The notes under the pieces: generated by a model | Database searches by the model: none | What the model was told of the DNA's origin: nothing | The model's input: the letters and a program-made list of their open reading frames with translations, nothing else | Assembly: GCF_026343955.1 (NCBI RefSeq) | Contig: NZ_JAPKNI010000003.1 | Coordinates: 434,001 to 498,000 of the forward strand | Length of the DNA stretch: 64,000 nucleotides | Source of the DNA: Kaistia defluvii | Lineage (GTDB): Bacteria > Pseudomonadota > Alphaproteobacteria > Rhizobiales > Kaistiaceae | Direction of reading: 5' to 3' | In this document: positions 5,725-28,095 of the stretch, piece after piece | How the letters are laid out: every line of letters starts with the position of its first letter | How positions within the stretch are numbered: the first letter of the stretch is position 1 | Made by a program: the position numbers and the translations under genes

Positions 5725-5827
5725 AACGGAACGCCGCGGGGGGCTGTCGCGGCGAAACCGCCGCGGCGCCCTTGATCTTCGGCGCCGGGCTTTGCATGGA
5801 AGCCTCGGCGAGGTACGAGCGGCAGCC

Positions 5828-6415
5828 ATGTTCACCCTTCTGAAATCCGAAACCTTCCGGCAGGAAATCAAGAAGAGCCGCTTTCTCGCGGTGGCGGGGC
5901 CTGTATCCGACGAGGCGGACGCGAAGGCGTTCATCGCGGCGAATTCCGACCCGGCCGCGAACCACAATTGCTGGGCCTGGAAGATCGGGCAGCAATACCG
6001 CTTCAGCGATGATGGCGAACCGAGCAGCACGGCCGGCAAGCCGATCCTGCAGGCGATCGAAGGGCAGTCGCTCGACGGCGTCGCCGTCGTGGTGACGCGG
6101 TGGTTCGGCGGGATCCTGCTCGGCGGCGGCGGTTTGATCCGCGCCTATGGCGGCACGGCGGCGGCGTGCCTGCGCGGGGCGGAGAAGCAGCCGCTGGTCG
6201 TGACGCAGGAAGCGACGATCCTTTGCGGCTTCGGCGACCTGGCGCTGTTGCAGGCGCGGCTGGCAACATGGCCCACCACGCGCGTGACGGCGCAGACCTA
6301 CACCGCGACGGGCGGCGAACTGGTCGTCGCGATCCAGCAGGACGACGTCGAGGCCGTGCGCCAGCTGGTTGCCGACCTCACCAGCGGCCGCGCCACCATG
6401 CGCCTCGCCGATTAG
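5828..6415 (+). CDS. YigZ/IMPACT-family protein (UPF0029)
   Basis: The 195-residue protein begins MFTLLKSE and carries the family core KSRFLAVAGPV, then DDGEPSSTAGKPIL and VVVTRWFGGILLG, all hallmarks of the IMPACT domain. A shorter C-terminal DUF1949-like segment follows. Bacterial YigZ proteins are cytosolic and of poorly defined biochemical role. Eukaryotic IMPACT modulates translation control through GCN1, but that should not be carried over. I selected the ATG at 5828 over one at 5792 because family members start just ahead of the conserved block. It is probably a single-gene unit between the kinase and rpfF. Confidence 0.9.
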   Translation: MFTLLKSETFRQEIKKSRFLAVAGPVSDEADAKAFIAANSDPAANHNCWAWKIGQQYRFSDDGEPSSTAGKPILQAIEGQSLDGVAVVVTRWFGGILLGGGGLIRAYGGTAAACLRGAEKQPLVVTQEATILCGFGDLALLQARLATWPTTRVTAQTYTATGGELVVAIQQDDVEAVRQLVADLTSGRATMRLAD

Positions 6416-7631: not shown

Positions 7632-10139
7632 CTATCCCAGACCCGCCTCGCGCGCCGAATAGGCGCGCATGGCCTTTTGCGTGCGCCTCAGCTCCGCCTT
7701 GGCCTGCCGCGTGAATTCCGCCGCGCCCGCGCGCAGTTCATCGCCGCGCAGCTTGCGCCAGGGAGCGCAGATGGCGCCAAGCGCCACCGCGCCCATATTG
7801 GCAGAACTGCTCTGCAGCGCATGATCATCGCTGCGGAACGCCTCCAGATCGCCGCGGCTGGCGCTCTGGATCAGCCTGTCCAGCATGATCTCGGCATCCG
7901 CCAGATAATCCTCCATCAGCTCGACCACGAATTCCGCGTTGCCGAGCCGCTGCAAGCGCTCGATCGCCCGATCGTCCAGGCTGGGCAAGACGGCATTGCG
8001 CACCAGAGTGAGCCGGGGTTCCGCGCGGACGGCCTTGTCCGGCCCGTCGCCGGTGATCCGGTCGATGGCGGCGAGCAGCGCCGAAGGCTCGACCGGCTTG
8101 ATCAGGCAGTCGTCCATGCCGGCATCGCGCCAGCGGCTGTCGTTCATCGCGGTCGCATCGGCGGTCAACCCGACGATGGGCAGCCGCCGGTCGCCGGTCG
8201 CCATGACCCGGTAGAGCTTGGTCGCCTCCAGCCCGTCCGTATCGGGCATGTTGAAGTCCATCAGCACGATGTCGATCTGGTCCGCCTTCTCCTCCAGCAG
8301 GTCGAGTGCCTGGTCGCCGGTCTCGGCCAGCAGGACGGAATGGCCCGCCGCCTCGAGGATGCGGGAGAAGACGCGTTGATTGATGCGGTTGTCGTCCGCC
8401 AGAAGAATGCGGCGCGGACGGCTCGGCCGGATCGGGCGCGGCGTCGCGGCGGCGACTTCCGCCGGCGCCGGCGCGTTCAGACGGCTGGCGACCATCAGGG
8501 CGCGGCGCAGCTCGGTCGGTGTGGGCCGCTCCGACAGCAGGCTCGAGCAGCGCTGCCGGGTCGCCAGCGGCGGCAACCCCGGCGGCACCCATGGCTGGAT
8601 CAGCACGCCCTTCGAGGACCCCGTCACGCCGGTATTAGGCAGGGGCAAATTCTTGCTGTCCGGCTCGAACAGCAGACGGATCGCATTGGCCGCCTCGGGC
8701 GGAAACATCCGAGCCGGTCCCTGGCGCGGATCCGCCAGGATCGGCGTCACGCCGAGCGAGGACAGCGTGCCGATCAGGTCCTGCAGGGGCGCAGCGTCCC
8801 GGCAGACCAGCACGACGCCGCGCTCCCGCCACGGTTCTTCCGCTGACAGGCCCTCATCGACCGGCGTCGCCGCGACGATGTCGAAGCGGAAGGTGCTCCC
8901 CTCGCCCAGGGCACTTTCGACCGAGATCGAACCGCCCAGCAATTCCACCAGTCGCCGTGCGATCGCCAGCCCGAGCCCCGTGCCGCCGAACCGGTTCATG
9001 ATGCTGGCATTGGCCTGGGTGAAATCCTCGAAGATCCGGTCCTGGTCCTTCGGCGCGATGCCGATGCCGGTATCCGTTACCTCCATCGTCAGCCGGAAAC
9101 GGCCGTCCTCTTCCGGCTGGCCGTCGACGGCGATGGTCACGCCCCCCTCGCGGGTGAACTTCACGGCGTTGCCGACCAGATTGACGAGGATCTCGTGCAG
9201 GTGCTGGCGGCTGCCGAACAGCCGCAGCGGGGTGCGCGGCGTGACATAGATGTCGAAGGTCAGGCCGCGCTCGCGCACTTGCGCCTCGACCAGGCGGCGC
9301 GCATCGACGAGCAGGGCGATCAGGTCGATCTCGCCATTCGATACCGGCATCCGGCCGGCCTCGATGCGCGACAGGTCGAGCAGGCTGTTGATCAGCGACT
9401 GCAGCGAGCGGGTCGCGACATCGACGGTCTCGACCATGTCGCGCTGTTCGGCGACGAGCGGGCTGGCCCGCAGCAAACCCGTCATGCCGACAATGGCGGT
9501 GAGCGGGGTACGCAGTTCATGGCTGACGCTGGCGAGGAACAGGCTCTTGGCCTGGCTCGCCTCCTCGGCCGCCTGGGTCGCCAGCGACAGCTTGCGGATC
9601 AGCGTGCCGGCATAGGCCGGAAGGATGACCAGGCCGGCCAGAAGACCGACCGAAAGGTGCCAGCGCTGCGCCCAGAACGGGGTGGTCAGAACCACCACGC
9701 CGAAACAAAGGGTTGCAACGGGAATGGCGGTCGCGAGCGCGGACAGGCCGAAGCGGAAGCCATTGCCGAAGATGACCCAGAGATAGATGGGAAAGAACAG
9801 CGCCGCGACTTCGCCGCCCAGATGCAATTGCCAGGAGAGGAAGCCGCAATCCATCACTAGCGCGAAGAAGCGCCGCGCGCGCGACACGCCGGGATAGAGC
9901 AGGATGTGGCCGAGCACGCCCAGGGCGAGCGGGATGTAGAGCGCCATGACATCGAGCGCGTAGCCGATGTCGTCGCTGCTCCGGTTCACCAGCAGAACAA
10001 TGACGATGATGGTGGCGAAGACGAGCCGGTTGTAGCTCATCTCATGCTCGCTGTCGGGCCGGTTCCGCAGCCGCGCAGCCATCCAGCGAAGGGGGAGAGT
10101 GAGCGCCTGAACGACTCTATCCGGCGCGCGCATGCTCAT
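7632..10139 (-). CDS. rpfC: RpfC-like hybrid sensor kinase (5TM-HisKA-HATPase-REC-Hpt)
   Basis: The 835-residue protein opens with a juxtamembrane segment containing RPDSEHE and about five transmembrane helices (residues 38-182), including WVIFGNGFRFG, a pattern I recognise from RpfC, the DSF receptor. HisKA follows with H207 in SVSHELRTPL, then HATPase_c with a GTGLGLAIARR G-box. A REC domain near residues 590-715 has its Asp in VLMDFNMPDTDG. A C-terminal Hpt domain carries the phospho-His in DDHALQSSSANMG. I placed the start at 10139 because AGGAGG lies 9 bp upstream; a longer start at 10181 is possible. It overlaps the end of the upstream GGDEF-EAL gene by 23 bp, so the two are translationally coupled. 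Confidence 0.88.
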   Translation of the reverse strand: MSMRAPDRVVQALTLPLRWMAARLRNRPDSEHEMSYNRLVFATIIVIVLLVNRSSDDIGYALDVMALYIPLALGVLGHILLYPGVSRARRFFALVMDCGFLSWQLHLGGEVAALFFPIYLWVIFGNGFRFGLSALATAIPVATLCFGVVVLTTPFWAQRWHLSVGLLAGLVILPAYAGTLIRKLSLATQAAEEASQAKSLFLASVSHELRTPLTAIVGMTGLLRASPLVAEQRDMVETVDVATRSLQSLINSLLDLSRIEAGRMPVSNGEIDLIALLVDARRLVEAQVRERGLTFDIYVTPRTPLRLFGSRQHLHEILVNLVGNAVKFTREGGVTIAVDGQPEEDGRFRLTMEVTDTGIGIAPKDQDRIFEDFTQANASIMNRFGGTGLGLAIARRLVELLGGSISVESALGEGSTFRFDIVAATPVDEGLSAEEPWRERGVVLVCRDAAPLQDLIGTLSSLGVTPILADPRQGPARMFPPEAANAIRLLFEPDSKNLPLPNTGVTGSSKGVLIQPWVPPGLPPLATRQRCSSLLSERPTPTELRRALMVASRLNAPAPAEVAAATPRPIRPSRPRRILLADDNRINQRVFSRILEAAGHSVLLAETGDQALDLLEEKADQIDIVLMDFNMPDTDGLEATKLYRVMATGDRRLPIVGLTADATAMNDSRWRDAGMDDCLIKPVEPSALLAAIDRITGDGPDKAVRAEPRLTLVRNAVLPSLDDRAIERLQRLGNAEFVVELMEDYLADAEIMLDRLIQSASRGDLEAFRSDDHALQSSSANMGAVALGAICAPWRKLRGDELRAGAAEFTRQAKAELRRTQKAMRAYSAREAGLG

Positions 10140-12303
10140 TCTCCGTCGCCTCCTGCGAGGGTCCGGGGGCCGTCTGGCCATGCTGCATCACCCAGGTGAC
10201 GAAAGCATCGGCCGGAATCGGTCCGCTGAAATGGTATCCCTGTACTTCGTCGCATCCTTCAAGCCGCAGAAGCTGCAATTGAGCCTCGGTTTCGACGCCC
10301 TCGGCAAGCACCTGCAGATGCAGGATATGCCCGAGATCGATGATGGTGCGCACGATCGCGAGCGCGCTCGGATCGCTGCCGAGATCCTGGACGAAGGAGC
10401 GGTCGATCTTCAGGCGATGCAGCGGGAAGCTGCGCAGATAGCTCAGCGACGAATAGCCGGTGCCGAAATCATCGACGGAGAGCGTGACGCCGAGCGACCG
10501 CAGCACATGCATCTGCTTGACGATATGCTCGTCATGGCCGAGCAGGATGCCTTCGGTCAGCTCCAGCTCCAGCAGCGTCGGCCGCATGCCACTCGCCCGC
10601 AACGCATCCTTGACCAGGGTTTCGACGCCCTGGCGGCGGAACTGGATCGGCGACATGTTGACGGCGATACGCAAATCGCCGAGCCCTTCCGCCTCCCAGA
10701 CCGCCCCCTGGCGGCAAGCCTCGTTCAGAACCCACTCATTGATCGGCAGGATGAGGCCGGTTTCCTCGGCAAGGCCCAGGAAAGCTCCTGGCGCGAGCAG
10801 GCCACGCTCGGGATGCCGCCAGCGCAGCAGCGCCTCGGCGCCGACGACCTTGCCATAGCGAAGGTCGATCTGCGGCTGGTAGAACAGGACGAATTCCCGG
10901 CGCGACAGCGCGCCGCGCAACTCGGTCTCGAGATGCGCCGTCTGGCTGGCGCGCGGCCGCATGTCCGCCGCGAAGAACCGCCATGTGCCGCCGCCCAGCG
11001 ACTTGGCCAGATACATGGCCTGGTCCGAATTCTTCAGGAGCTCGTCCGGATCGGTCCCGTCCAGCGGCGCCAGGGTGACACCGATGCTGGCGCCGATATT
11101 GAGCGCGAGCGGACTGTCCTCCTTGCTGTTGAGCAGGTCGAGGATCGACTGGGCCAGCCGGCCGGCATCCTCCGGCCCGTCAATGCCGGGCTGAAGGATC
11201 GCGAATTCGTCGCCGCCAAGTCGAGCGACCGTGTGCCCCTCGTCGACCAGCGCGGACAGCGCCGCCGCGACACGCTGCAACAGTTCGTCGCCGCTGTGAT
11301 GGCCATGCGCGTCGTTGACCGCCTTGAAGCGATCCAGATCGATGAAGTGCAGGGCAAAGATCTGGTCGCCGCGCCGGCCGCGCGCCAGTTCGCGCCGCAG
11401 CCGGTCCCGCAGCATCAATCGGTTGGGCAGTCCGGTCAGCGCGTCATGATTGGCGATATGCAGCAGCCGGCGCTCGGCATGGCGCTGCTCCGTGATGTCG
11501 ATCGAGGTTGAAAGCACGCTCGCGATCTCGCCCGAACTGTCATAGAGCGGCGCCTTGCTGGTCAGGTAGATGCGCGGCTCGCCGTCGGGCGACAGCACTT
11601 CCTCCTGGCGCGGGGAGATGGCGCGGCCCGTCTTGAGCACGAGTTGGTCGAGCCGCCGGCTGATGTGAGCCCGGTCCTCGCCCAGCAGCGCCTCGATCGG
11701 TTTTCCCACGAGATCGCCAGGCGCCTTGCCGAAAAAGGCGGCCTGATGCGCATTGACGAAGACGCAGCGACCGTCCCGGTCCGTGGCGTTGATCATCGCC
11801 GGCACGGTGTCGATGACCTGGGCCAGCGCCTCGCGGCTTTCGCGCAGCAGCCGCTCCTTCGCGTTCAGGCTGATCTCCAGCAGGTCGGCGCGCTTTGAGA
11901 TCACGAGCTGCTGGCTCCGCAGCTTGAGCAGGTTCTTGGCCCGGGCGAGAAATTCGACATGGTCGACCGGGCTGAGCAGAAAGTCCGTCGCTCCCGCCTC
12001 CAGCGCCTCGACCCGGAACTGCTGGTCGCTATAGGCGGTGATGACGATGATCGGCACATCCCAGTTGCGCACGTCGGCGCGGACGGCTGCGGTCAGGTCG
12101 GCGCCCGACATCGTCGGCATCTTGTAGTCGGTGATGATCAGATCGGCGGTGTTCTCCGCCAGCCATTCGAGAGCCTTCCGCGGATTTCCGAAGGTGCGGA
12201 TATCCAGCTCGGTATCCAGCTGACGCGCCAGCTTCGAATAGATGCGCTGATTGGTCGAACTATCGTCGACGATGAGGATCTTGGGCATCAGTGCTGGCGC
12301 CAT
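10117..12303 (-). CDS. Response regulator with PAS, GGDEF and EAL domains (c-di-GMP turnover)
   Basis: This protein of about 728 residues begins with a receiver domain (acidic pair in ILIVDDSSTNQR, phospho-acceptor D59 in IITDYKMPTMSG). A helical linker leads to a PAS domain near residues 175-285. An intact diguanylate cyclase site RLGGDEF and a phosphodiesterase domain with EALLRWRHP and DDFGTGYSS follow, so both catalytic activities look possible. It sits upstream of and overlaps the rpfC-like gene. In classical Rpf systems RpfC signals to RpfG, a REC-HD-GYP phosphodiesterase; this gene occupies that place with a different output domain. The start is uncertain between 12303, 12288 and 12396. 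Confidence 0.9.
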   Translation of the reverse strand: MAPALMPKILIVDDSSTNQRIYSKLARQLDTELDIRTFGNPRKALEWLAENTADLIITDYKMPTMSGADLTAAVRADVRNWDVPIIVITAYSDQQFRVEALEAGATDFLLSPVDHVEFLARAKNLLKLRSQQLVISKRADLLEISLNAKERLLRESREALAQVIDTVPAMINATDRDGRCVFVNAHQAAFFGKAPGDLVGKPIEALLGEDRAHISRRLDQLVLKTGRAISPRQEEVLSPDGEPRIYLTSKAPLYDSSGEIASVLSTSIDITEQRHAERRLLHIANHDALTGLPNRLMLRDRLRRELARGRRGDQIFALHFIDLDRFKAVNDAHGHHSGDELLQRVAAALSALVDEGHTVARLGGDEFAILQPGIDGPEDAGRLAQSILDLLNSKEDSPLALNIGASIGVTLAPLDGTDPDELLKNSDQAMYLAKSLGGGTWRFFAADMRPRASQTAHLETELRGALSRREFVLFYQPQIDLRYGKVVGAEALLRWRHPERGLLAPGAFLGLAEETGLILPINEWVLNEACRQGAVWEAEGLGDLRIAVNMSPIQFRRQGVETLVKDALRASGMRPTLLELELTEGILLGHDEHIVKQMHVLRSLGVTLSVDDFGTGYSSLSYLRSFPLHRLKIDRSFVQDLGSDPSALAIVRTIIDLGHILHLQVLAEGVETEAQLQLLRLEGCDEVQGYHFSGPIPADAFVTWVMQHGQTAPGPSQEATENEHARAG

Positions 12304-12628
12304 GGACACACAAAAAGCCTCTTGCGATAGCGTTGGCACGCTGAACTGGGATGACCGTATAGCATTGAAAGTTGCTTGGAAGCGGCCAGAGGGCATCGGG
12401 TCGAGCTTGATTCATTTGTTTACGCTGCCCCACTGACAAGTGGTAGCGCAGGCTGGACGATCCGGCCAACTTTCATCGCTTCGCCGGCTCGTCGGGCCAC
12501 GACACGGCCATGCCCAAAACATGTGGACAAGAGTCAGCCGACGCGCGCGCTCCGGCCGGAAGGCGCTCTACCCTCTAAGGGAACCGTGCCCGTCCCGATC
12601 CCATTGCCCTCGCATAAAGGAAAAAGCC
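12304..12628. other. Intergenic region between divergent genes
   Basis: No credible coding potential was seen. It holds a 14-base palindrome at 12430-12443 (CCACT-GACA-AGTGG) that could be an operator for either gene. A TTGCGATAG segment lies nearer the GGDEF-EAL gene, but I could not define a convincing promoter. The 20 bases before the gene at 12629 include AAAGGAAAAAG as its ribosome binding site. Confidence 0.4.
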
Positions 12629-13189
12629 ATGACAGCGACCGCCTGGCACGCCGATCCCTTGGTATGGGGAACCGGCCCGCGTCGGTTCGAGGTGTTTCTC
12701 GAACCCACCTGCCCCTATTCGGTTCGAACCTTCAACAAGCTCGACGCTCTTCTCGCGGAGGCCGGGGAAGACAGGATCACCATCGCCATCCGCCTGCAGT
12801 CACAGCCCTGGCATCTCTATTCCGGCGTGATCGTCCGCTGCATCCTCGCGGCGTCGACGCTGGCGGGCGGCAAGGAAACGGCCCGGAAGGTCATGGCCGC
12901 CGTCGCCGCGCATCGCGAGGAATTCGAATTCACGCATCATGCCGGCGGACCCAACATGGACGTCACGCCGAACCAGATCATCGAGCGGCTGGAAGGCTAT
13001 AGCGGCGTCGCGCTTCAGGAGGCGTTCGCCCTCCACACGCTCGACCGCGAGATCAAGTGGCACTGCAAATATGCCCGCCAGAACGGCATCCATGTCTCGC
13101 CGACCTTCATGATCGACGGACTGATCCAGCCCGACCTGAGCAGCGGCGACGAGGTATCGGCCTGGGTGTCGCGCCTGGTACCCGGCTGA
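12629..13189 (+). CDS. DsbA-like thioredoxin-fold protein with single-cysteine CPYS site
   Basis: The 186-residue protein has a thioredoxin-fold N-terminus RFEVFLEPTCPYSVRTF in which the usual CxxC is CPYS (C28, S31), so it cannot form an active-site disulfide. The helical insertion and a cis-Pro loop VSPTFMIDG near residues 150-158 match the DsbA/2-hydroxychromene isomerase superfamily. No signal peptide is visible, so it is probably cytosolic. A monothiol site suggests a glutathione-dependent or reductase role over disulfide formation, but substrate and partner are unknown. It is preceded by AAAGGAAAAAG and ends at a strong terminator, so it is monocistronic. Confidence 0.75.
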   Translation: MTATAWHADPLVWGTGPRRFEVFLEPTCPYSVRTFNKLDALLAEAGEDRITIAIRLQSQPWHLYSGVIVRCILAASTLAGGKETARKVMAAVAAHREEFEFTHHAGGPNMDVTPNQIIERLEGYSGVALQEAFALHTLDREIKWHCKYARQNGIHVSPTFMIDGLIQPDLSSGDEVSAWVSRLVPG

Positions 13190-13198
13190 TCCGCAATC

Positions 13199-13227
13199 CC
13201 GACCCCGGCGTCGCCGGGGTCGGTTTT
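13199..13227 (+). terminator. Rho-independent terminator
   Basis: Eleven-base perfect arms (13199-13209 and 13213-13223, CCGACCCCGGC with its complement) and a 3-base loop are followed by TTTT at 13224-13227. It lies 10 bp after the stop of the CPYS protein and faces the convergent small acidic gene. Confidence 0.85.
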
Positions 13228-13234
13228 GAATGGG

Positions 13235-13492
13235 CTAGAGAACGTCCAGCGAGAGCTCGTCGGAGAGCGCCTCTTCCTTCTGTTCGTCGGTCAGCGTGAT
13301 CTCTTCGGAGACGCCGGCCTCGTCCTTCACCTCGAAGGTGTCGGGCAGTTCGTCGTTCAGCGACCAGTAGGCGAGCATGGCCGCCTCGGTCCGGTTGCTG
13401 GCGATCACGTCCACGGTGATCGTCACCTGGAAATGGTCGCCTTCGAAATCCTCGAACTCCGGGTCGAGTTCGGCTTCGGTCTTATCGGACAT
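13235..13492 (-). CDS. Small acidic hypothetical protein
   Basis: The 85-residue protein begins MSDKTEAELD and is strongly acidic. About residues 20-50 form a mixed beta/alpha stretch (HFQVTITVDVIASNRTEAAML), followed by an acidic tail. No signal peptide, membrane segment or known motif was recognised. The ATG at 13492 is chosen because the 18 codons ahead of it (from 13546) are basic and unlike the rest. It converges with the CPYS protein. Function unknown; a low-complexity acidic tail is compatible with a protein-binding or chaperone-like role, but nothing supports that directly. Confidence 0.65.
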   Translation of the reverse strand: MSDKTEAELDPEFEDFEGDHFQVTITVDVIASNRTEAAMLAYWSLNDELPDTFEVKDEAGVSEEITLTDEQKEEALSDELSLDVL

Positions 13493-13683
13493 CGTTCTTC
13501 TCCGCAGATTTCCGGTCAAGGTGGCCCTACTTGCGCGCTGCCTCACAGCCGGTCAAGCCGCAACGCGGCCGCCCGGCTCGATGCGTGGAGATCGTGAGGC
13601 ACCGGGCTATCGGCCTTTGCAGTCCGCCCGACCTCCGTGCTTCACTGGCAAGGATTCGAAACTCCATAGCAGGAACCACCGTC

Positions 13684-14250
13684 GTGACCCGTGTCGATCA
13701 TAGCCCCTACCATACGGCGCTCGAGGAACTTGGCACCGTATTCAGTCGATTGGATGACGGGAAGGTCGATGAACTGATCGATGCCATCGCCAAGGCGAAG
13801 AGCACGGTCGTGTTCGGCGGGGGCCGCGAGCGCCTGCAGATCATGGGCTTTGCGATGCGCCTCTACCATATGGGCGTGCCGGTCGCGGTGGAAGGCGACA
13901 TGACCACGCCGCCGGTCGGCCCCGGCGACCTGTTCCTGGTCACGGTCGGGCCCGGAGAAATCTCCACCGCCCTGGCGCTGATCGGCGTCGCGCGCAGCGC
14001 CGGCGCGACCGTCGCGGTGATCACGGCACAGCCGGGCGGCAAGGCGCCCGCCATGGCCGACCTGGTCCTGCACCTGCCGGCTCAGACCATGGCCGACGAC
14101 CAGGGCGAAGCCCGCAGTTCGATCCTGCCGATGGGCTCGCTGTATGAAGGCGCGCTGTTCGTGCTTTTCGAGGTCATGATCCTGAAGCTGCGCGAGCGCC
14201 TGCAGACGACGCCAGAAGCGATGCGGGCACGGCACACCAATCTGGAATAG
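13684..14250 (+). CDS. SIS-domain sugar isomerase (6-phospho-3-hexuloisomerase-like)
   Basis: The 188-residue single SIS domain has the size and layout of 6-phospho-3-hexuloisomerase (HxlB) and the related SgbU/YckF proteins. STVVFGGGRERLQIMGFAMRLYHMG forms the first strand and phosphosugar loop, LFLVTVGPGE the second, and LPMGSLYEGALFVLFE the C-terminal helix. The GTG start at 13684 is chosen because AGGA lies about 8 bp upstream and the family begins shortly before the first helix. No hexulose-6-phosphate synthase gene adjoins it. It stands 431 bp upstream of the acid-sugar cassette and may or may not belong to it. Confidence 0.8.
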   Translation: MTRVDHSPYHTALEELGTVFSRLDDGKVDELIDAIAKAKSTVVFGGGRERLQIMGFAMRLYHMGVPVAVEGDMTTPPVGPGDLFLVTVGPGEISTALALIGVARSAGATVAVITAQPGGKAPAMADLVLHLPAQTMADDQGEARSSILPMGSLYEGALFVLFEVMILKLRERLQTTPEAMRARHTNLE

Positions 14251-14264
14251 ATCTCCAGACCAGC

Positions 14265-14306
14265 GATGCCAGCCTTCCGCCTCGACGGCCGAGGGAGGCT
14301 GGCATC
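14265..14306. repeat. Inverted repeat, possible terminator of SIS gene
   Basis: Perfect 11-base arms GATGCCAGCCT (14265-14275) and AGGCTGGCATC (14296-14306) enclose 20 bases that can pair further (CCTCG with CGAGG). It follows the SIS gene stop by 14 bp. It is followed by a C-run, not a T-run, so termination is possible but unproven. Confidence 0.5.
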
Positions 14307-14396
14307 CCCCAGGACGCGTCCATTCCGCCTAACGAGCCCTCGCCCATGCGGGGCCGGCGCATGTCCGCCGCGCGCTTCCCAAGGCAGCCGGACGCT

Positions 14397-14417
14397 TTCT
14401 CCCTTCTCCCTTCTCCC
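14397..14417 (+). repeat. Three tandem TTCTCCC heptamers
   Basis: Exact copies of TTCTCCC occur at 14397-14403, 14404-14410 and 14411-14417, with a degenerate fourth copy after them. This is a short polypyrimidine tandem repeat in a non-coding gap. It could vary in copy number between strains. Confidence 0.7.
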
Positions 14418-14681
14418 TTCCCCAATCCACGATCCGGCATGCCTCGACCCGCGGGCGGGACGCTCCCGGCCGCGATGCATCGCGCCAGGCATTCCAGCCG
14501 GGCTGCGCGATTTGATCATCCATGCCCTTTCGTTTTGCGCAGGATGCGCATAAATTGACGATGGTGAGCCAATCCCCGGCGCAACACCTGCCCCGTTCTG
14601 CGTGAATCGCGCAATGGAGGTCTCGACCTTGCCGCTTTCGACCAAGCCGAATATCCCCCCTTTCCGGGTGCAATCCTTTCG

Positions 14682-17809: not shown

Positions 17810-17831
17810 AATGTGGGATTTATCCCACATT
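17810..17831. promoter_or_regulatory. Perfect palindrome AATGTGGGAT-TT-ATCCCACATT upstream of the PqqD cluster
   Basis: Two perfect 10-base arms with a 2-base spacer lie 128 bp before the PqqD-like start and 81 bp after the DeoR stop. AT-rich outer ends and GC-rich middle arms are typical of a dimeric repressor operator. A second small palindrome GGGAC-C-GTCCC follows at 17861-17871. No regulator gene lies inside the cluster, so the binding protein is unknown. The DeoR protein next door is one candidate. Confidence 0.55.
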
Positions 17832-17958
17832 CCTCTGGAAACACGCTTCGAAGTACGGCTGGGACCGTCCCGATATTGCGTGCATCCAGCGGCGCTTGCT
17901 ATCGCTGCCCGCAGAATGACGTTTGGTAAGCTGGCGAAGCCGGAGATGAGGTACGAGA

Positions 17959-18390
17959 GTGGTTGAGGCGACCTATCTGACTGTTGCAGTTCCGAACTGC
18001 GTCGCCGACGATTTCGGCGGCGAAATCGTGGCGCTCAACCTGGACACGGGCTTCTATTTCAGCCTGCGCGACCTCGCCGCCGCCGTCTGGCGCGATCTGG
18101 CAGCCGGACATTCCGTCGAATCCGTTCTCGGGCCACTCGGCGCACAGGCGCCACACTTGGCGGAGGATGCCACCCGGCTGATCGACCGGATCCAGTCCGA
18201 GGGCCTGATGCAACCGGCCGTCGCAGTCGTCCTGGCGGAAGGCGATCCTTCGGTCGCCACTTTCATCGCCGGCGGCATGACGTCGCTGGTCATTGATTCC
18301 TATGACGATCTTCGGGATCTGGTGATGACCGACCCGATTCACGAAGTGGTCGAGGAAGTGGGCTGGCCAGTTCGTCGGGAGGACGCCTGA
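17959..18390 (+). CDS. PqqD-family peptide-binding protein (HPr-rel-A system type)
   Basis: The 143-residue protein contains the PqqD/RRE fold in residues 18-70: GGEIVALNLDTGFYFSL, then LAAAVWRDLAAGHSVESVL, and a final helix ending LIDRIQSEGLMQP. PqqD domains bind peptide substrates and present them to modifying enzymes. It starts with GTG at 17959, supported by GGAG about 13 bp upstream. The HprK-related kinase begins four bases after its stop codon. I recall PqqD-like proteins paired with HprK-related kinases as a named but biochemically uncharacterised family pair; here the pair is followed by glycosyltransferases. The extra 50 C-terminal residues have no recognised domain. Confidence 0.75.
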   Translation: MVEATYLTVAVPNCVADDFGGEIVALNLDTGFYFSLRDLAAAVWRDLAAGHSVESVLGPLGAQAPHLAEDATRLIDRIQSEGLMQPAVAVVLAEGDPSVATFIAGGMTSLVIDSYDDLRDLVMTDPIHEVVEEVGWPVRREDA

Positions 18391-18393
18391 TCC

Positions 18394-19461
18394 ATGCCGG
18401 CGGGCGTTGTGGCAGGCGCCGCCTCGAGGGTCGACAATGGGAGTCTGGGTGCCTTCTTCGACCGCTTGTTCGAGCGGCTCGACACGACTCCGGATGATCG
18501 GTTGCATGTGGCTGACCTGAGTCTGGGCGGCGCCAGCTTCAAGCTGCGCTGCAGCAACCGCGAGGTTCTCAAACAGTATAGCGATCGCCTCGCGCCATCG
18601 GGCGCCGCCACCGCGCCGGGCGGCCGGATCGATATCATTGCAGCCGCCGACATGGGATGGACCGCCGGCCAGTGGGCCGAACCCGACTGGAAGATGCATC
18701 ACTACGATGAATCCGCGGCCCTCGGCGGCTATCTGGCGACCTATCCCTATTTCGACAGGCAATGGATTGTCCGCCAACGGCGGTCCGGCAACGCCGCCTA
18801 TTTCCTCGACCGCATGGAGGATCTCCTGCCGTGGGACAGCGGCGCTCCCGTGCGGGTTCCCCTGAACTGGGCGCTTCACACGGCGAAGCGCCGCATGGTC
18901 CACGCTGGCAGCCTCGGCGTCGACGGCCATGGCGTGCTGATCGCCGGCCCCGGCGGGGCGGGAAAATCGGGAACGACCCTGGCAGGCCTGGCGGGCGGCC
19001 TGCAAACCGTGGGCGACGACTATGTGCTGCTCGATCAGCACGAACATCCGACGGTGTCGCCGCTCTATCGCTTGCTGAAACAGGATGCCGCCGGAATCGC
19101 TCGCATTCCAGGCCTGGGGGATCGGCTTGGCGCACTCACGCCGAACTGGCAGGGCAAGTTTGAGTTCGATCCCGACATCGCTTTCCCCGGATGCGTCGCC
19201 GGGCCACTGCGGCTCGGCGCGATCCTGCTCCCGGCGGTGGCCATGCAGGCCCGATCGACATTGGAGCGGGTGCCGCGCGCCGAAGCCGTCCGCTATCTCG
19301 TGGACGCCCTGTTCGGCGAATTCCAGTCCCGATCGGCCGAGGATCTCCTGTTCCTGACCGGGCTGTCGATGCGGTTGCCCATCTATCGGATGCGGCTTTC
19401 GGCCGACCCGGCCGAGATCGCGGCGACCGTGCGCACCGTGATCGGAGACCATTCGTCATGA
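18394..19461 (+). CDS. HprK-related kinase (P-loop, HPr kinase C-terminal fold)
   Basis: In this 355-residue protein the second half resembles the HPr kinase/phosphorylase catalytic domain. HAGSLGVDGHGVLIAG leads into the Walker A motif GPGGAGKS (residues 185-192), followed by VGDDYVLLDQ in the place of the Walker B/catalytic segment. The first half (residues 1-160) is specific to the HprK-related A type. No HPr or phosphotransferase gene is nearby, so the substrate is probably not HPr. In some peptide pathways HprK-like enzymes phosphorylate a precursor peptide. GGGAGGA lies 13 bp upstream of the ATG, and the stop overlaps the first glycosyltransferase start as ATGA. Confidence 0.75.
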   Translation: MPAGVVAGAASRVDNGSLGAFFDRLFERLDTTPDDRLHVADLSLGGASFKLRCSNREVLKQYSDRLAPSGAATAPGGRIDIIAAADMGWTAGQWAEPDWKMHHYDESAALGGYLATYPYFDRQWIVRQRRSGNAAYFLDRMEDLLPWDSGAPVRVPLNWALHTAKRRMVHAGSLGVDGHGVLIAGPGGAGKSGTTLAGLAGGLQTVGDDYVLLDQHEHPTVSPLYRLLKQDAAGIARIPGLGDRLGALTPNWQGKFEFDPDIAFPGCVAGPLRLGAILLPAVAMQARSTLERVPRAEAVRYLVDALFGEFQSRSAEDLLFLTGLSMRLPIYRMRLSADPAEIAATVRTVIGDHSS

Positions 19462-20246
19462 CGCTCGTCAGCATCGTCGTGCCCGCCTACGACGCGGAAC
19501 CCTTCATCGGCGAAGCCCTCGACAGCCTCGCGGCGCAGACCTACCGCGAATTCGAGATCCTTGTCGTCGATGACGGCTCGCGCGACCGGACGGCTCGGCT
19601 GGTCACGGAAGAGGCTGAACGGGATTCCCGCATCCGCCTTCTTTCGATCCCGCATTCCGGCGTGGCGGCAGCCCGCAATGCAGGCGTCCGCGCAGCACGC
19701 GGCTCCCTGGTGTCGTTTCTGGACGCCGACGATCTTTGGCGGCCCGACAGGCTTGAGCGGCACGTGTCGCTTCTCGGGCGCGAGCCGGCGACCGATCTGA
19801 TCGTCGGGGAGGTCCTTGTCTTCGAGGCGCTCAGCCCCACCTTCGAACCCGTGCTGGGGTCTGACCACGTCCAGCTCCGCAGCGTCAATCTCGGGGCCGC
19901 GACGATCCGCTCGACCGTCTTCGACGCGGTGGGTGTGTTCGACGAAACCATGCGCTTTTCGGAGGATCTCGATTTCCTGCTGCGGGTCCACGAAGCGGGG
20001 ATGAGCCTTGCTGTGGAAAGCGAGGTGGCACTCCTCTATCGGCGACACGACGCGAACATGACAAATGATGCCGATGCCAACCGCCGTTACATCCTGCGGG
20101 CGCTGCACCACTCCCTGGCACGTCGGCGCGATCGAAACTCTCGGCCGCCGGCGATGGCATTCCCGCTACAGACGCGCTTTGACGAACTCACCATGTCGCC
20201 AGCGGATGTCGGCAACGCCATCGCGAGCAGAAGGAGGAGCGGATGA
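19458..20246 (+). CDS. GT2 glycosyltransferase, first of four
   Basis: The 262-residue GT-A glycosyltransferase of family 2 has nucleotide-binding strand VSIVVPAYDAEPFIGEAL, VVDDGSRD, and metal-binding motif FLDADD. The acceptor region ends in EDLDFLLRVHEAG. Near the C-terminus it has LLYRRHDANMTND and a basic RRR tail, a signature shared with the next two proteins. There is no membrane anchor, so it acts in the cytosol or on the membrane surface. ATGA overlaps couple it to both neighbours. Donor sugar and acceptor are unknown. Confidence 0.85.
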   Translation: MTLVSIVVPAYDAEPFIGEALDSLAAQTYREFEILVVDDGSRDRTARLVTEEAERDSRIRLLSIPHSGVAAARNAGVRAARGSLVSFLDADDLWRPDRLERHVSLLGREPATDLIVGEVLVFEALSPTFEPVLGSDHVQLRSVNLGAATIRSTVFDAVGVFDETMRFSEDLDFLLRVHEAGMSLAVESEVALLYRRHDANMTNDADANRRYILRALHHSLARRRDRNSRPPAMAFPLQTRFDELTMSPADVGNAIASRRRSG

Positions 20247-20992
20247 ACGCACCTCCCGCGCTTTCGGTCATCATCCCCGCGTTCAACGGCATGGCCCTCA
20301 TCGAGGCAGCGATCGTTTCAGTGCTGGCTCAAGGCGAGGTGAGCAGCGAAATACTCATCATCGACGATGGCTCGCAGGACGAGACTGCCTCCTGTGTCGA
20401 GCGCATGGCCCGGAACGACGATCGAATCCGACTATTTCGTGAAATGCATGGTGGCGTCGCTGCGGCACGCAACCGGGGCCTGGCGCGAGCCCGGGCGCCG
20501 TTCGTTACCTTCCTGGATCAAGACGATATCAAGCCCGCGGGCGGGCTTACGAGGCATGTCGAGATCCTGACGGGGAATCCGAACCTTGGAGCGGTCGTCG
20601 GAGAGAGCGTCATGTTCGATCAGATCAGCGAAAGAGGCGACGTCACATTGGGACGCCACCAGCGCATGCTCGCGACGTTGCTTGGTGCAGGAACCTTTCG
20701 ACGAGACTTGTTTGCCGACCTCGGCGATTTTGCCTGTGATCTCGAAATGGGCAGCGACTACGACTTTTACCTGCGCATGATCGAGGCGGACATCCCCATT
20801 GCCGTCGACGAGGAGGTGGCACTGCTCCACCGGCGACACAGCGGCAATGCCAGCAGCGACCGTCGCACGTTGAGCCGTGAACTCCTGCTCGTCTTTCACC
20901 GATCGGTTCAAAGACGCCGGAGGAACGGATATTCGGCCGCGCTGCGGCATCCGCTGCTCGACGCCATGCGAGCCCAGTGGCCAGGAGGGTAG
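20243..20992 (+). CDS. GT2 glycosyltransferase, second of four
   Basis: The 249-residue GT2 protein has SVIIPAFNGMALIEAAI, IIDDGSQDE and the metal motif FLDQDD, where the middle residue is Gln. EMGSDYDFYLRMIEAD resembles the catalytic-base region of its neighbours. The C-terminus keeps LLHRRHSGNASSD and ends in arginine-rich sequence, so it derives from the same ancestor as the flanking copies. Its base composition looks slightly less GC-rich than its neighbours, by eye. It begins inside the stop of the first copy (ATGA). Confidence 0.83.
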   Translation: MNAPPALSVIIPAFNGMALIEAAIVSVLAQGEVSSEILIIDDGSQDETASCVERMARNDDRIRLFREMHGGVAAARNRGLARARAPFVTFLDQDDIKPAGGLTRHVEILTGNPNLGAVVGESVMFDQISERGDVTLGRHQRMLATLLGAGTFRRDLFADLGDFACDLEMGSDYDFYLRMIEADIPIAVDEEVALLHRRHSGNASSDRRTLSRELLLVFHRSVQRRRRNGYSAALRHPLLDAMRAQWPGG

Positions 20993-20993
20993 C

Positions 20994-21791
20994 ATGACGA
21001 TCGATCGTCCCACGGTCAGCATCGTGATGCCCGCCTTCAACCGCGCGGACTATATCGCCGAGGCGCTCCAGTCGCTGCAGGCCGAGCCCGGCATCGACGC
21101 GGAGATCCTCGTCGTCGACGACGGCTCCACCGATGGGTGCGACGCGATCGTGGCGTCGATCGCGGCAGCCGACCCGCGCGTCCGGCTGATCCGGCAGGAT
21201 CATCGCGGCGTTTCCGCGGCGCGCAATACGGGCCTGCGCGCCGCGACAGGCCACTTCCTCACCTTCCTCGACTCCGACGACATCAGCGCGCCCGGAAGGA
21301 TCCTCAGGCAGGTGACAAAGCTCGCGGCGCGGCCGGACCTCGTCGCGGTGATCGGGCAACGGATCTATTTCAACGCGATGAACCGGGACTTCGAGCCCGA
21401 AGCAGGTTCGCTCTGGCAAAGGACCCTCGATATCTGCCTGGCGAGCGCCGTCTTCCGACGCTCGACCTTCGACGTGTTCGGCGGCTTCGACGAGGCGCTC
21501 ACCTATGGCGAGGATATCGATTTCTATTTCCGGCTGTTCGAGGCCGATTGCCGTTTCCTGATCGAAATCGATACGGCGATCTACTACCGCCGCCATGCCG
21601 GCAACATGACCAACGACCGGGACGCCATGCACCGGGCCTGCCTTCGGGCCTACCACAACTCCATGCTGCGCCGCCGGGCGACCGGCCGGACACGCCGGCT
21701 GGACCTCTTCTTTTTCCGGCAGTTCGACCAGGAAACGGAATTTGGCGGCGAGCCGGATACGGCACCGCAATCCTCCCCCCTCAATGCCTAG
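20994..21791 (+). CDS. GT2 glycosyltransferase, third of four
   Basis: The 265-residue GT2 protein has VSIVMPAFNRADYIAEAL, VVDDGSTDGCDAIV and FLDSDD as metal motif, then GEDIDFYFRLFEAD. The C-terminal signature YYRRHAGNMTND followed by LRRR matches copy one closely. A tail of about 30 residues (RLDLFFFRQFDQETEFGG) is not present in the others. AGGAGGG lies just before the ATG at 20994, so this copy has its own ribosome binding site, unlike copies one and two. Confidence 0.85.
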   Translation: MTIDRPTVSIVMPAFNRADYIAEALQSLQAEPGIDAEILVVDDGSTDGCDAIVASIAAADPRVRLIRQDHRGVSAARNTGLRAATGHFLTFLDSDDISAPGRILRQVTKLAARPDLVAVIGQRIYFNAMNRDFEPEAGSLWQRTLDICLASAVFRRSTFDVFGGFDEALTYGEDIDFYFRLFEADCRFLIEIDTAIYYRRHAGNMTNDRDAMHRACLRAYHNSMLRRRATGRTRRLDLFFFRQFDQETEFGGEPDTAPQSSPLNA

Positions 21792-21809
21792 CCGAGAGGA
21801 CAGGCCGCC

Positions 21810-22496
21810 ATGTCGAGCCGCTATACGGTGATTATTCCGGCCTTTAACGCGACCAGGACGCTCGCCGATGCCATCGCCTCGCTGCGCGGCCAGACTGTTC
21901 CGCCGGCGCGTGTTCTTCTGGTCGATGACGGTTCGACGGATGGCACGGGCGATCACGCGCGGGAGCTCGGGATCGACGTCATCCGGCAGGACAATCGGGG
22001 TCCCGGCGCCGCCTGCAATCTCGCTCTGCAGACGGTCGACACGCCGATCACCGCCTATCTCGACGCCGACGATCTCTGGCTGCCGAAAAAAGCCGCATGG
22101 CAGCTGGCGAGCCTAGACGAAGCGACCGATGTCGACGCGGTGTTCGGCCATCTCCGCATCTTCTTTCATGGCCGTCCCGTCGACCCCGCCGCCAGGACCC
22201 AGGAAGGCTGGGGCCGCACGACGATGATGATCCGGACCGACTGCGCCCGTCGGATCGGGCCGATCTACGATCCGCTCGAGGGTGGCCGGGGCGATATGAT
22301 CGACTGGATTGCCCGGGGGCGCGAAATGGGTCTTCGTTTCCAGATGTCCCCCTCGGTCGTCGCGCTCCGCCGCGTGATTGCTGGCAGCATGAGCTATGGC
22401 CGCGACGAACGGGATGTCGGCTATCTGGAGATCGCGCGACGCGCCCTGACCCGCCGGCGCGCCGCCCTCGCCGCCAGCACGGGATCCGGCTCATGA
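21810..22496 (+). CDS. GT2 glycosyltransferase, fourth of four, shorter
   Basis: This is the shortest copy at 228 residues: YTVIIPAFNATRTLADAI, LVDDGSTDGTG and metal motif YLDADD. The C-terminal signature is degenerate but recognisable (LRRVIAGSMSYGRDE, then RRRAAL), so it belongs to the same group. It lacks part of the middle region, including an obvious EDxDF motif; RGDMIDWIARGREMG occupies that place. It overlaps the following nucleotidyltransferase by ATGA. The divergence suggests a different acceptor or donor from copies one to three. Confidence 0.82.
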   Translation: MSSRYTVIIPAFNATRTLADAIASLRGQTVPPARVLLVDDGSTDGTGDHARELGIDVIRQDNRGPGAACNLALQTVDTPITAYLDADDLWLPKKAAWQLASLDEATDVDAVFGHLRIFFHGRPVDPAARTQEGWGRTTMMIRTDCARRIGPIYDPLEGGRGDMIDWIARGREMGLRFQMSPSVVALRRVIAGSMSYGRDERDVGYLEIARRALTRRRAALAASTGSGS

Positions 22497-23938
22497 GCTG
22501 GCGACGCGAACGCAGTTGGCCGGACGGTCTCGTGCACCTGCTGCTCCAGGCGGCGCTCGGTCCGGATGCCCAGGCCAGGGCGGCCTGGCAGGCTTGGAAG
22601 GCGCAACGGAACTTTGACGACGTCACATGGCCGGAGATGCGCCTGTTGGCGCCGCTCTCGCTTCGCCTGCCGCAACTCGATCCGGACACGCCGCTGCGGC
22701 CGCGGATCGACGGGCTGACGAAACAGCTCTGGACCAAGACCCAGCTCGGCCTGCGCGAGACGGCGACCGCCTTCGACCGGCTGAGCGCGGACGGCATACC
22801 GTTCCTCGTCTTCAAGGGCGGAGCGCAATATGCCGAGGGGCTCGCCGTGACGACGCGCCGGATCATGGGCGATGTCGACATTCTGGTGCGGCCGGCGGAC
22901 ACGGGGCGGGCGCTCGATTCGCTCGCTGCGGACCACTGGACGGCGACGAATGGGGAATCGTTCGAATATCTGCGCCAGCTGGCTAATGTCCGCCTCAGCG
23001 GCAATTTCAAGAAGGGCGAGCACGGCGAGATCGACCTGCACAATTCGCCGTTTCACTTCGCTCGGATCCAACCCGCCCTCGACGACGCGCTATGGGACAT
23101 GGCCCGCGGCGCGAAGCTGGCGTTGCGCCCTATCCTGGTTCCGTCGCCGACCGACGCCACACTGCTTCTCCTTGCCCATTCCGCCACGAGTAACAGCGGC
23201 GACTGGGCAATCGATCTTGCCACCCGGATCGAGCGGCAGGCGATCGACTGGGACCGGCTGGCGTCGATGGCGCATCAGCGCGGCCTCGTGCCCGCCTGTC
23301 TCGCCGGCCTGCGCTATGTGCGACAGGAACTGGCGCTCGCCGTGCCGGACCACGCTCTCGACGTTATGGCGAGGGCGTCCGTGCCGCTTGGAGAACGGCT
23401 GAAATACTGGTCGAATGTACGCGACCGCAGCGACCGCAATCTGGCGGAGAAGGCCGGCAACCGGCTCGCCGACCGGCTGCTTCGGCATCAGGGCTTCTCG
23501 CTCATCGTGAAGGATCGCCGCGCCATCACCGTGACGCGGCCGCGCATTCCGCTGCGCTGGCTGCTTGGTCTCTCCAAGCCGGTCGAGAGCTTGCCGCCGG
23601 GACGCGAGCTGCTGCACACGATCACGCTGCGCCAGCCGCGCAGGAGCCTGATCCTGAAGATCGCGCTCGACGCCCCGCCGCTGTCGCGACGGCTGTTCTT
23701 CGATATCAGCTGCAATGGCGTCGCCATCGCCCGGCTTCGAAGCCGGGCGGGGGGGCGGGGCGCGGGACTAACGGTGTCGCGCACCTTCCATCTGCCGCTG
23801 CCCAATGGCGTGGTGGGAGACCTGTCGGTATCCGTCTGCGCGCGACCCGTCCGATTCATCCCGCCAAACGCGACCGAAGCGGAACAGGCCGCCCTCGGCC
23901 CGACCCCGTTCTCTCTCGCAGGGGTCTGGACCGCATAG
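22493..23938 (+). CDS. NTP_transf_5-type nucleotidyltransferase
   Basis: The 481-residue protein has the core of the nucleotidyltransferase-fold family NTP_transf_5: IPFLVFKGGAQYAEG (residues 99-113), then RIMGDVDILVRPAD with the catalytic Asp pair, and later EIDLHNSP, which supplies a further acidic residue. The last 140 residues have an all-beta look (LFFDISCNGVAIARL) without a recognised family. Members occur beside HprK-related kinases and PqqD proteins in several bacteria, as I recall, but their substrate is unknown. It is the last gene of the cluster; the convergent exported gene starts 22 bp later. Confidence 0.78.
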   Translation: MSWRRERSWPDGLVHLLLQAALGPDAQARAAWQAWKAQRNFDDVTWPEMRLLAPLSLRLPQLDPDTPLRPRIDGLTKQLWTKTQLGLRETATAFDRLSADGIPFLVFKGGAQYAEGLAVTTRRIMGDVDILVRPADTGRALDSLAADHWTATNGESFEYLRQLANVRLSGNFKKGEHGEIDLHNSPFHFARIQPALDDALWDMARGAKLALRPILVPSPTDATLLLLAHSATSNSGDWAIDLATRIERQAIDWDRLASMAHQRGLVPACLAGLRYVRQELALAVPDHALDVMARASVPLGERLKYWSNVRDRSDRNLAEKAGNRLADRLLRHQGFSLIVKDRRAITVTRPRIPLRWLLGLSKPVESLPPGRELLHTITLRQPRRSLILKIALDAPPLSRRLFFDISCNGVAIARLRSRAGGRGAGLTVSRTFHLPLPNGVVGDLSVSVCARPVRFIPPNATEAEQAALGPTPFSLAGVWTA

Positions 23939-27591: not shown

Positions 27592-28095
27592 TCACCCTCT
27601 GCGGGCCCCGAGCCCGATCCAACGATCCAGCGCCAGCGGACCGCCGCCATAGACGACGAGCGTCAGCGCCATCGCCGCCCAGGGCAGATGGAAATTGGCC
27701 CAGCCCTCCGGCACGGTCAGCTGGATCACCGCCGTCATCAGCAGGATGCCAAGCGCCGCGAAACGCGTGCCAAGGCCGAGCCCCAGCAGGATCGGCAACA
27801 CGATCTCGCCGATGCCGGATAGCGTCGCCATCAGGATCGGCGCCGGATAGGGATACTGATTCCCCAGGATGTGCAGGCTGAATTCCTGCGTGAACAGATA
27901 GCGCGCTCCATTCGACAGCGTCAGGAAGCCATCCCATTTCGTCAGCCCCGACTTGAAGAACGGCACCGCCAGCGCGAAACGAAGCGCCAGCAGCGGCAGT
28001 GCCTCCGGAATGGCGGCGAGAGCCGCCTCGACGCGCTGCACGATGCGCCAGAGCGAGCGCCCGCGATCGGTCGGCGCCTGATCGATGCCGGTCAT
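27592..28095 (-). CDS. bufD: DoxX-family membrane protein (BufD position)
   Basis: The 167-residue DoxX-type protein has four predicted membrane segments, including LPLLALRFALAVPFFKSGLTKWDG, GEIVLPILLGLGLG and ALGILLMTAVIQLTVP. It is the last gene of the bufA-bufB-bufC-bufD order and overlaps bufC by ATGA. In bufferin operons a DoxX protein is common; its role is not settled, with quinone-linked redox chemistry or membrane placement suggested. A 120-bp gap with no recognised structure separates it from the convergent MocR gene. Confidence 0.82.
   Translation of the reverse strand: MTGIDQAPTDRGRSLWRIVQRVEAALAAIPEALPLLALRFALAVPFFKSGLTKWDGFLTLSNGARYLFTQEFSLHILGNQYPYPAPILMATLSGIGEIVLPILLGLGLGTRFAALGILLMTAVIQLTVPEGWANFHLPWAAMALTLVVYGGGPLALDRWIGLGARRG

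Follow-up and report, generated by a model that had tools for sequence, protein, structure and literature searches.

The stretch of DNA analyzed here (the window) comprises 64,000 nucleotides of Kaistia defluvii, namely, bases 434001-498000 of contig 15 in a host genome of 4.9 Mb (G000). It harbors seven genes that all lie on the + strand between positions 17959 and 23938 of the window and that we refer to as the cassette. The first gene encodes a PqqD-like protein of 143 amino acids (17959..18390; 25.8 bits against PF05402, cut-off 23.4), composed of a RiPP recognition element (RRE; RiPP, ribosomally synthesized and post-translationally modified peptide) at approximately residues 14 to 86, a variable linker, and a conserved C-terminal tail. 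It is followed by an HprK-like kinase of 355 amino acids (18394..19461), four glycosyltransferases of family 2 (GT2s), and a nucleotidyltransferase-fold protein of 481 amino acids that belongs to PF14907 (22493..23938; 88.7 bits, cut-off 31.2). Sequence comparison suggests that the seven-gene set is probably a pathway of peptide phosphorylation and glycosylation; the best substrate candidate is the tail of the PqqD-like protein itself (residues 107 to 143, 18277..18387, + strand), which ends in DPIHEVVEEVGWPVRREDA.

All four glycosyltransferases match PF00535 and carry a DxDD motif, whereas the usual ED is changed in the second and fourth. They are GT2 protein 1 (19458..20246, 117.5 bits; DADD and SEDLDF), GT2 protein 2 (20243..20992, 86.9 bits; DQDD, with SD replacing ED), GT2 protein 3 (20994..21791, 122.8 bits; DSDD and GEDIDF; start codon ATG at 20994), and the short GT2 protein 4 (21810..22496, 87.2 bits; DADD, with GD replacing ED), a type that adjoins PF14907 in many relatives. 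The co-directional arrangement, the PqqD-like first gene, the four related GT2 genes and the NTP_transf_5 (PF14907) gene of a preliminary description of this DNA were thus borne out. Its statement that the genes mostly overlap by ATGA holds for three of the six junctions (19458, 20243, and 22493) but not for the other three, where gaps of 3, 1, and 18 bases separate the genes. Since gaps do not exceed 18 bases anywhere, the window cassette has no gap for a precursor gene. Gene starts are inferred, and the loci compared below come from draft genomes.

Local profiles were used to score the window and 37 other loci (L numbers below), 38 in total; the others had all been reached through one member of the cassette by kinase searches, tail searches, and one plasmid search. 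L035 and L036 duplicate the contigs of L040 and L041 and were counted once. Twelve loci with a kinase but without the tail, whose kinases are lasso-type or unclassified, were excluded before the count, namely, nine around matches to the lasso B2 protein (L047, L074-L081) and three around weak kinase matches (L059, L126, L127). The RRE with tail, the kinase, and at least one GT2 were found together at 36 of the 38 loci, and 29 of these 36 cassettes also contain PF14907, which is absent at L049, L050, L092, L095, L123, L124, and L133. This check of gene order thus found the pieces mostly together in relatives, the exceptions being L042 and L122. The RRE, the kinase, and PF14907 are found in lasso-type clusters too. 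The preliminary description had singled out the presence of four glycosyltransferases; GT2s do recur, but their number varies from 1 to 5 copies per cassette, and the count of four carries less weight.

Because the loci had been chosen by one member, the value of 36 of 38 is biased, and we counted separately from the kinase side and from the tail side. Among 101 genomes, 18 of 19 places with a kinase match at E below 1e-16 had the RRE with tail (31 weaker kinase places, lasso-type kinases among them, lie outside this count), as had all nine places at E<=1e-20 in 385 genomes of the class, two of them with a variant tail. The tail search of the 101 genomes returned 22 places, with the RRE at all 22 and the cassette kinase at 21, although 16 of these places are rows of the search profile itself. 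For the tail places outside the profile (6 in the 101 genomes and 4 in a search of the phylum, apart from a weak place in G815 with 24 bits), the figures were 10/10 for the RRE and 9/10 for the kinase. Kinase and tail therefore nearly always co-occur in these searches of relatives, and every tail examined is fused to an RRE.

The distribution of the cassette is patchy. Including the host genome in each case, 18 of the 101 relatives and 7 of 398 genomes of the phylum (G815 among them) carried the tail, and 7 of the 385 genomes searched within the class carried the kinase at E<=1e-20. Flanks differ as well: four ORFs (open reading frames) flanking the cassette in the window were matched elsewhere, each in one or two of 23 other loci. 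The nearest named relative found with the cassette is a Hyphomicrobiales metagenome-assembled genome (L035), and the cassette also occurs in Breoghania corrubedonensis (L037), an environmental bacterium that can be cultured. In the most distant case, the cyanobacterium Crinalium epipsammum carries it on a mobilizable plasmid, on which RRE-tail, PF14907, kinase, and glycosyltransferase genes adjoin an FkbM methyltransferase; a second nucleotidyltransferase and an ABC (ATP-binding cassette) transporter gene, approximately 9 kb from the RRE, follow further along. A general home on plasmids was rejected, as the window kinase matched the Crinalium plasmid only and the window PF14907 protein matched no plasmid; the Crinalium kinase matched itself only, and the Crinalium PqqD protein matched itself and, in the RRE part without the tail region, proteins of Tistrella and Paenibacillus plasmids. 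A phage home was likewise rejected, the window PqqD protein, the sole query used against phages, giving no match.

Several individual loci show further features. The host genome contains a second, rearranged copy (L046, G000:C12:190284-198092) with an RRE-tail protein, GT2s, a kinase on the opposite strand, a protein combining TPR (tetratricopeptide repeat) and GT2 parts, a weak polysaccharide-deacetylase match, and PF14907. At L040, the second GT2 is split over two frames (5703-6320), which reflects an assembly error or a broken gene. Judged by eye, the cassettes at L096 and L097 each contain a pair of PF14907-like genes together with one GT4-like gene. L124 belongs to a second cassette type; there, an asparagine-synthase-like protein, recognized by eye from its N-terminal sequence, is encoded at 12746-14563 near the RRE-tail and kinase genes. 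The RRE-tail protein at L122 is a possible remnant.

The AlphaFold2 model of the PqqD-like protein is a winged helix (mean pLDDT [predicted local distance difference test] of 84). In a Foldseek search of the Protein Data Bank, ranks 1 to 6 were lasso RRE-leader complexes (5v1u and 5v1v, both of TbiB1, and 6jx3), with E values from 9e-4 to 1.3e-2, one of which is <=0.001. A profile of 21 cassette RREs matched TbiB1 at 1.9e-14 and TfuB1 at 5.6e-8. Taking the fold match and the profile match together, the protein is by predicted fold and by sequence a lasso-type RRE, although it passed no NCBIfam cut-off: the window protein reached 22.2 of 70 and 20.5 of 80 bits with the lasso_PqqD models, and five relatives scored below the cut-offs too.

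The assignment of the second gene as an HprK-related kinase stood in part. Its best matches are of the HprK type and the catalytic residues are kept, but it scored below every curated cut-off tried, including those of PF07475 (E 2.5e-6, 27.6 bits, gathering cut-off 33.3), the NCBIfam model HprK_rel_A (TIGR04352; 26.7 of 200 bits), TIGR00679, and others. Family models thus place the PqqD-like protein inside its family and leave the kinase under the cut-offs of its own. Residues H170, K191, D208, and D209 are invariant in 22 aligned kinases, and every one of the 36 cassette kinases has the same four residues (HKDD), as seen with a pattern in 32 and by eye in 4; lasso-type kinases have them too, and they were reported to be essential in lasso-peptide kinases (PMC9266682). 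The HKDD kinase is described here as a candidate peptide phosphorylator of the kind found in lasso and LPP (linear polyphosphorylated peptide) systems, the latter being a pathway of Bacillota compared below. On a kinase tree, the 36 cassette kinases fall on one side of a branch that separates them from lasso-type kinases (support 87/91). We use this tree as supporting evidence only, because its support is moderate, it is unrooted, several rows are short or have long branches, and it lacks a true HPr kinase.

In the PF14907 protein, a DxD motif (127/129) and a DxH motif (181/183) precede a C-terminal beta-sandwich, and D127, D129, and D181 are invariant in an alignment of six sequences. Foldseek matches of its model include MenT1, TM1012, and FKRP (E 1.1e-2), the last of which is a ribitol-phosphate transferase; these structural matches are weak, given E values between 9e-4 and 1.1e-2 for the named proteins. 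The C-terminal domain matches many beta-sandwich proteins, including carbohydrate-binding modules and BcsB. Such matches, together with the several GT2s of most cassettes, would suit a cell-surface or lipid-linked glycan pathway, in which a short glycan built by the GT2s would receive a phospho-sugar or alditol from the PF14907 protein, with the HprK-like enzyme acting as a sugar kinase and the RRE-tail protein as no more than a scaffold. At L057, a single open frame inside the cassette (8809-12312) combines an ABC exporter (PF00664 and PF00005) with a GT2 domain, and this domain combination, the ABC gene on the Crinalium plasmid, and the asparagine-synthase-like protein of L124 also fit a glycan pathway. 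However, glycan synthesis alone does not account for the leader-like tail of the RRE or for the peptide-kinase motif of the kinase, and family scans of the seven genes name no polymerase, flippase, or initiating phosphoglycosyltransferase. We consider this pathway rather improbable. L058 resembles L057, by similarity only.

The tail is the most conserved part of the RRE protein. The information content per column in the 21 aligned RREs was 3.18 bits for tail residues 113 to 137, as compared with 2.31 bits for the RRE domain and 1.71 bits for the linker. Residues D117, D125, P126, H128, W136, and P137 are invariant in this alignment and likewise in a tail alignment of 20 rows, Crinalium among them, and the most conserved part usually ends in DP[IV]H[ED]V...GWP. 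Codon differences between the window and its nearest relative, L040, were 16 synonymous and 1 non-synonymous in residues 111 to 143, as opposed to 9 and 12 in the linker (residues 84 to 110) and 27 and 13 in residues 1 to 83. Judged by these codon differences, the tail is under purifying selection. AlphaFold2 predicted a strand at residues 111 to 115 (block mean pLDDT of 82), the partner of which is not named in the output, and poor order for residues 121 to 143 (blocks of 59, 49, and 43). The end of the tail is thus predicted to be disordered and yet is conserved, and it is most simply read as a segment recognized by other proteins; according to the model, its conservation more likely serves recognition than folding.

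Ahead of this conserved end, the tail carries a leader-like motif at a fixed place. With 37 tails in register, 15 match [YFWH]xxPx[hydrophobic], 27 have the proline, and all 37 have the hydrophobic residue; matching tails include those of the cyanobacterium and of the L095/L123/L124 and L096/L097 lineages. The published motif of lasso and LPP leaders is [Y/W]xxPx[L/V/I/A/F/Y] (PMC13381572). The alignments support a tail made of two segments, a leader-like one ([YFW]xxPxL...DM..LL, in several deep lineages) followed by the strongly conserved DP[IV]H[ED]V..GWP; the tails of L082 and L055, for example, retain FxxPxL. No account of the C-terminal tail of this RRE, nor of an RRE with its own leader tail, and no paper on the combination of HprK and PqqD or on this cassette was found in the literature searched, which covered few subscription papers. 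RRE-Finder and its 2025 update, in the parts available, name RRE-glycosyltransferase fusions and no fused leader.

The preliminary description had noted that a substrate is not obvious in the window. There is indeed no separate precursor in the operon, but the conserved tail of the PqqD-like protein had been overlooked. In the region from 12 to 30 kb of the window, the [YWF]xxP motif occurs at 11 places in ORFs of 30 to 200 amino acids, which are mostly out-of-frame or antisense overlaps (by eye); one coding-looking ORF (27592-28095) has it at residue 82. A hidden upstream precursor encoded by a 51-amino-acid ORF (17811-17966) was rejected: it starts inside an inverted repeat described below, and single-base gaps in L040 would break its frame. 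No candidate substrate was found among shared flank genes, cassette gaps, or RRE-free tails (all 22 tail places of the 101 genomes have an RRE), and a genome-wide precursor search was not made.

We tentatively favor, at somewhat less than an even chance, a lasso/LPP-type pathway of peptide phosphorylation and glycosylation, in which the bait is fused to its own RRE and the tail is the acceptor or carrier. The tail is proposed as acceptor because there is no room for another gene, no shared flank gene, and no RRE-free tail among the places examined, and because its end is conserved and unfolded. The leader-like segment would bind to the RRE as a beta-strand, either within the same chain (in cis) or between the partners of a dimer, and would present the DPIHEV..GWP end outward, where the HKDD kinase, the GT2s, and the PF14907 enzyme may recognize it; recognition by all of these enzymes would be the reason why this end hardly varies. 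The kinase would phosphorylate the growing adduct, the GT2s would attach sugars, and the PF14907 enzyme might attach a further unit via the phosphate, as reported for PsmN on pseudomycoidin. The tail would thereby become a carrier or an acceptor.

A number of observations weigh against this proposal. L042 has the kinase, PF14907, and one GT2 without the RRE, and no kinase, GT2, or PF14907 was found beside the RRE-tail gene of L122 (G009, 9272-9745). The variant tails of L096 and L097 end in LLALDPPLPAAPR, with LDPPLPAAPR in place of DPIHEV..GWP, and in the wider set of 37 tails, L098 has E117 and I126 and L134 has N117. The core-like part is more conserved than the leader-like part, the reverse of LPP and most RiPPs, which combine a conserved leader with a variable core. 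The window and its nearest relatives are devoid of the aromatic residue of the motif, and the window copy also of the proline. No peptidase family was matched by the seven cassette genes in family scans, the rest of the genome not having been searched, and an unrelated precursor may be encoded elsewhere in the genome. The AlphaFold2 model of the PqqD-like protein was built on six sequences, the window and five relatives. LppK, the LPP kinase, was reported to phosphorylate a single Ser repeatedly and not a Thr or Tyr at that position (PMC13381572).

Two further points bear on whether the tail is modified at all. The published Y/W form of the motif is present in just 7 of the 37 tails, with F in 8 more, which shifts weight from an acceptor towards a docking role, and no invariant Ser or Thr is present in the tail among the aligned relatives. 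The tail may thus be a docking or gating element that recruits the kinase and the glycosyltransferases, or that fills the RRE groove until the true substrate displaces it. A disordered and conserved end is what a docking motif would have, and in lasso and LPP systems the leaders bound by such RREs are separate peptides (PMC13381572, PMC5067487). In turn, a docking role calls for a substrate other than the tail, and the searches of flanks, cassette gaps, and RRE-free tails described above offered no candidate. We regard docking as a real, if doubtful, possibility.

Upstream of the cassette lies the inverted repeat AATGTGGGAT-TT-ATCCCACATT (17810..17831), a possible operator. The two 10-bp arms are perfect, but with TT at the center between them the repeat is not quite the perfect 22-bp palindrome previously described. 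Its length alone is unremarkable, because the window contains six inverted repeats with perfect arms of >=10 bases and loops of <=4 bases. The sequence TGTGGGA-N4-TCCCACA has a single exact site in the host genome, which is this repeat, and the 18-base core is found in L040 with one central base changed, in surrounding DNA that has drifted. An operator common to all cassettes was rejected, as repeats within 300 bases upstream at other loci do not match.

The closest known system is LPP (LppA-LppK-LppB-LppS-LppD-LppN), described in Bacillota in May 2026 by Popov and colleagues (PMC13381572). It consists of an RRE, an HprK-like kinase, an NTP (nucleoside triphosphate) transferase, an exporter, a SipW-like peptidase, and a separate precursor, and RRE, kinase, and NTP transferase are reported to form a working peptide-phosphorylation set in Bacillota, to which LPP is described as restricted (PMC13381572). 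In the same report, deletion of the NTP transferase had no effect, no activity of this enzyme could be found and a missing partner was suspected, and the final product escaped detection. In common with LPP, the window cassette has a core of a discrete lasso-type RRE, an HprK-like kinase, and an NTP transferase gene, LppN being likened to the PF14907 protein by its description as an NTP transferase, and neither has a macrolactam cyclase. LPP also has an MsbA-like exporter, which recalls the ABC proteins in L057 and near the Crinalium cassette, and often lies in glycosyltransferase-rich loci. However, the LPP precursor is a separate YxxPxVLxHQ... peptide in which a Ser is phosphorylated, and its cluster encodes a leader peptidase of the SipW-like kind, whereas the window cassette has a leader-like sequence fused to the RRE, GT2s in the operon, and no peptidase match. 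The PqqD-guided peptide phosphorylation and glycosylation put forward in the preliminary description thus gains from the recurring cassette and from the homology of RRE and kinase to lasso and LPP proteins, its basis being sequence comparison.

Lasso-peptide clusters combine the same three elements, as in the phosphorylated and glycosylated lasso peptides paeninodin (PadeK) and pseudomycoidin (PsmK/PsmN), where an HKDD kinase and a nucleotidyltransferase accompany an RRE; PsmN reportedly attaches hexoses to phospho-Ser or, alternatively, to act as a nucleotidyltransferase ahead of a host enzyme (PMC9266682). Unlike these clusters, the window cassette is devoid of a B2 protease, an asparagine-synthase-like cyclase (none among the seven proteins in a Pfam scan), and a precursor gene. 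As the trio of RRE, kinase, and NTP transferase is shared but GT2s and a fused tail are added, with neither a peptidase nor a precursor in the operon, we did not file the cassette as LPP or lasso. The lone B2 (PF13471) match of the host lies on another contig, in a lasso-type cluster (L047, G000:C16:225095-227003) known by its RRE, B2, own kinase, and PF14907. The cassette could in principle tailor the lasso peptide of this cluster. This is very unlikely because 5 of 11 cassette genomes (G005, G013, G014, G017, and G023) gave no B2 match in a search of 41 genomes; the lasso-type cluster moreover has its own kinase and PF14907 gene, and the tree splits the cassette kinases from lasso-type kinases. 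The kinases of L074-L077 and L079 are closely related on the tree to that of L047. In L080 (10100-10653, - strand) and L081 (6321-6729, - strand), tandem small ORFs with YVRPALV/YARPALV or YDKPTLF/YEKPSLI lie near lasso-type kinases and B2 matches and resemble repeated lasso-like precursors, those of one cluster.

Two other systems share single features with the cassette. The HPr-rel-A system (TIGR04352 kinase and TIGR04353 PqqD) likewise pairs a PqqD-type protein with an HprK-related kinase; however, the window kinase falls far below the TIGR04352 cut-off, as given above, and the window PqqD protein has no TIGR04353 match at E<=1. The relative closest to this system is L094, with 27.8 of 35 bits for TIGR04353. 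The mycofactocin glycosyltransferase MftF, likewise a GT2, adds sugars to a RiPP whose core is conserved, and GT2 protein 3 of the window matches its model (TIGR03965) with 99 bits, although under the cut-off of 280 bits. No radical SAM enzyme or MftA match was found among the seven genes.

In a more novel reading, which we judge unlikely, precursor and recognition element would be united in one protein with the order RRE-linker-leader-core, and the peptide-derived product or carrier would be of a new kind. As the core DP[IV]H[ED]V..GWP is nearly fixed from the cyanobacterium to Hyphomicrobiales, it would point to one defined product, comparable to pyrroloquinoline quinone or mycofactocin, rather than to a variable toxin. 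Such a product would carry phosphate and a short sugar chain, the length of which would follow the number of GT2 genes. Little is known of the biochemistry of PF14907 enzymes and of HprK-like/PqqD pairs; the tail of the RRE itself is a specific candidate for their substrate, and the GT2s of the same operon are candidates for the missing partners of the NTP transferase suspected in the LPP study. The trio of RRE, HKDD kinase, and NTP transferase, with no lasso genes in the cassette, is present in Pseudomonadota and in a cyanobacterium, whereas LPP is described as confined to Bacillota.

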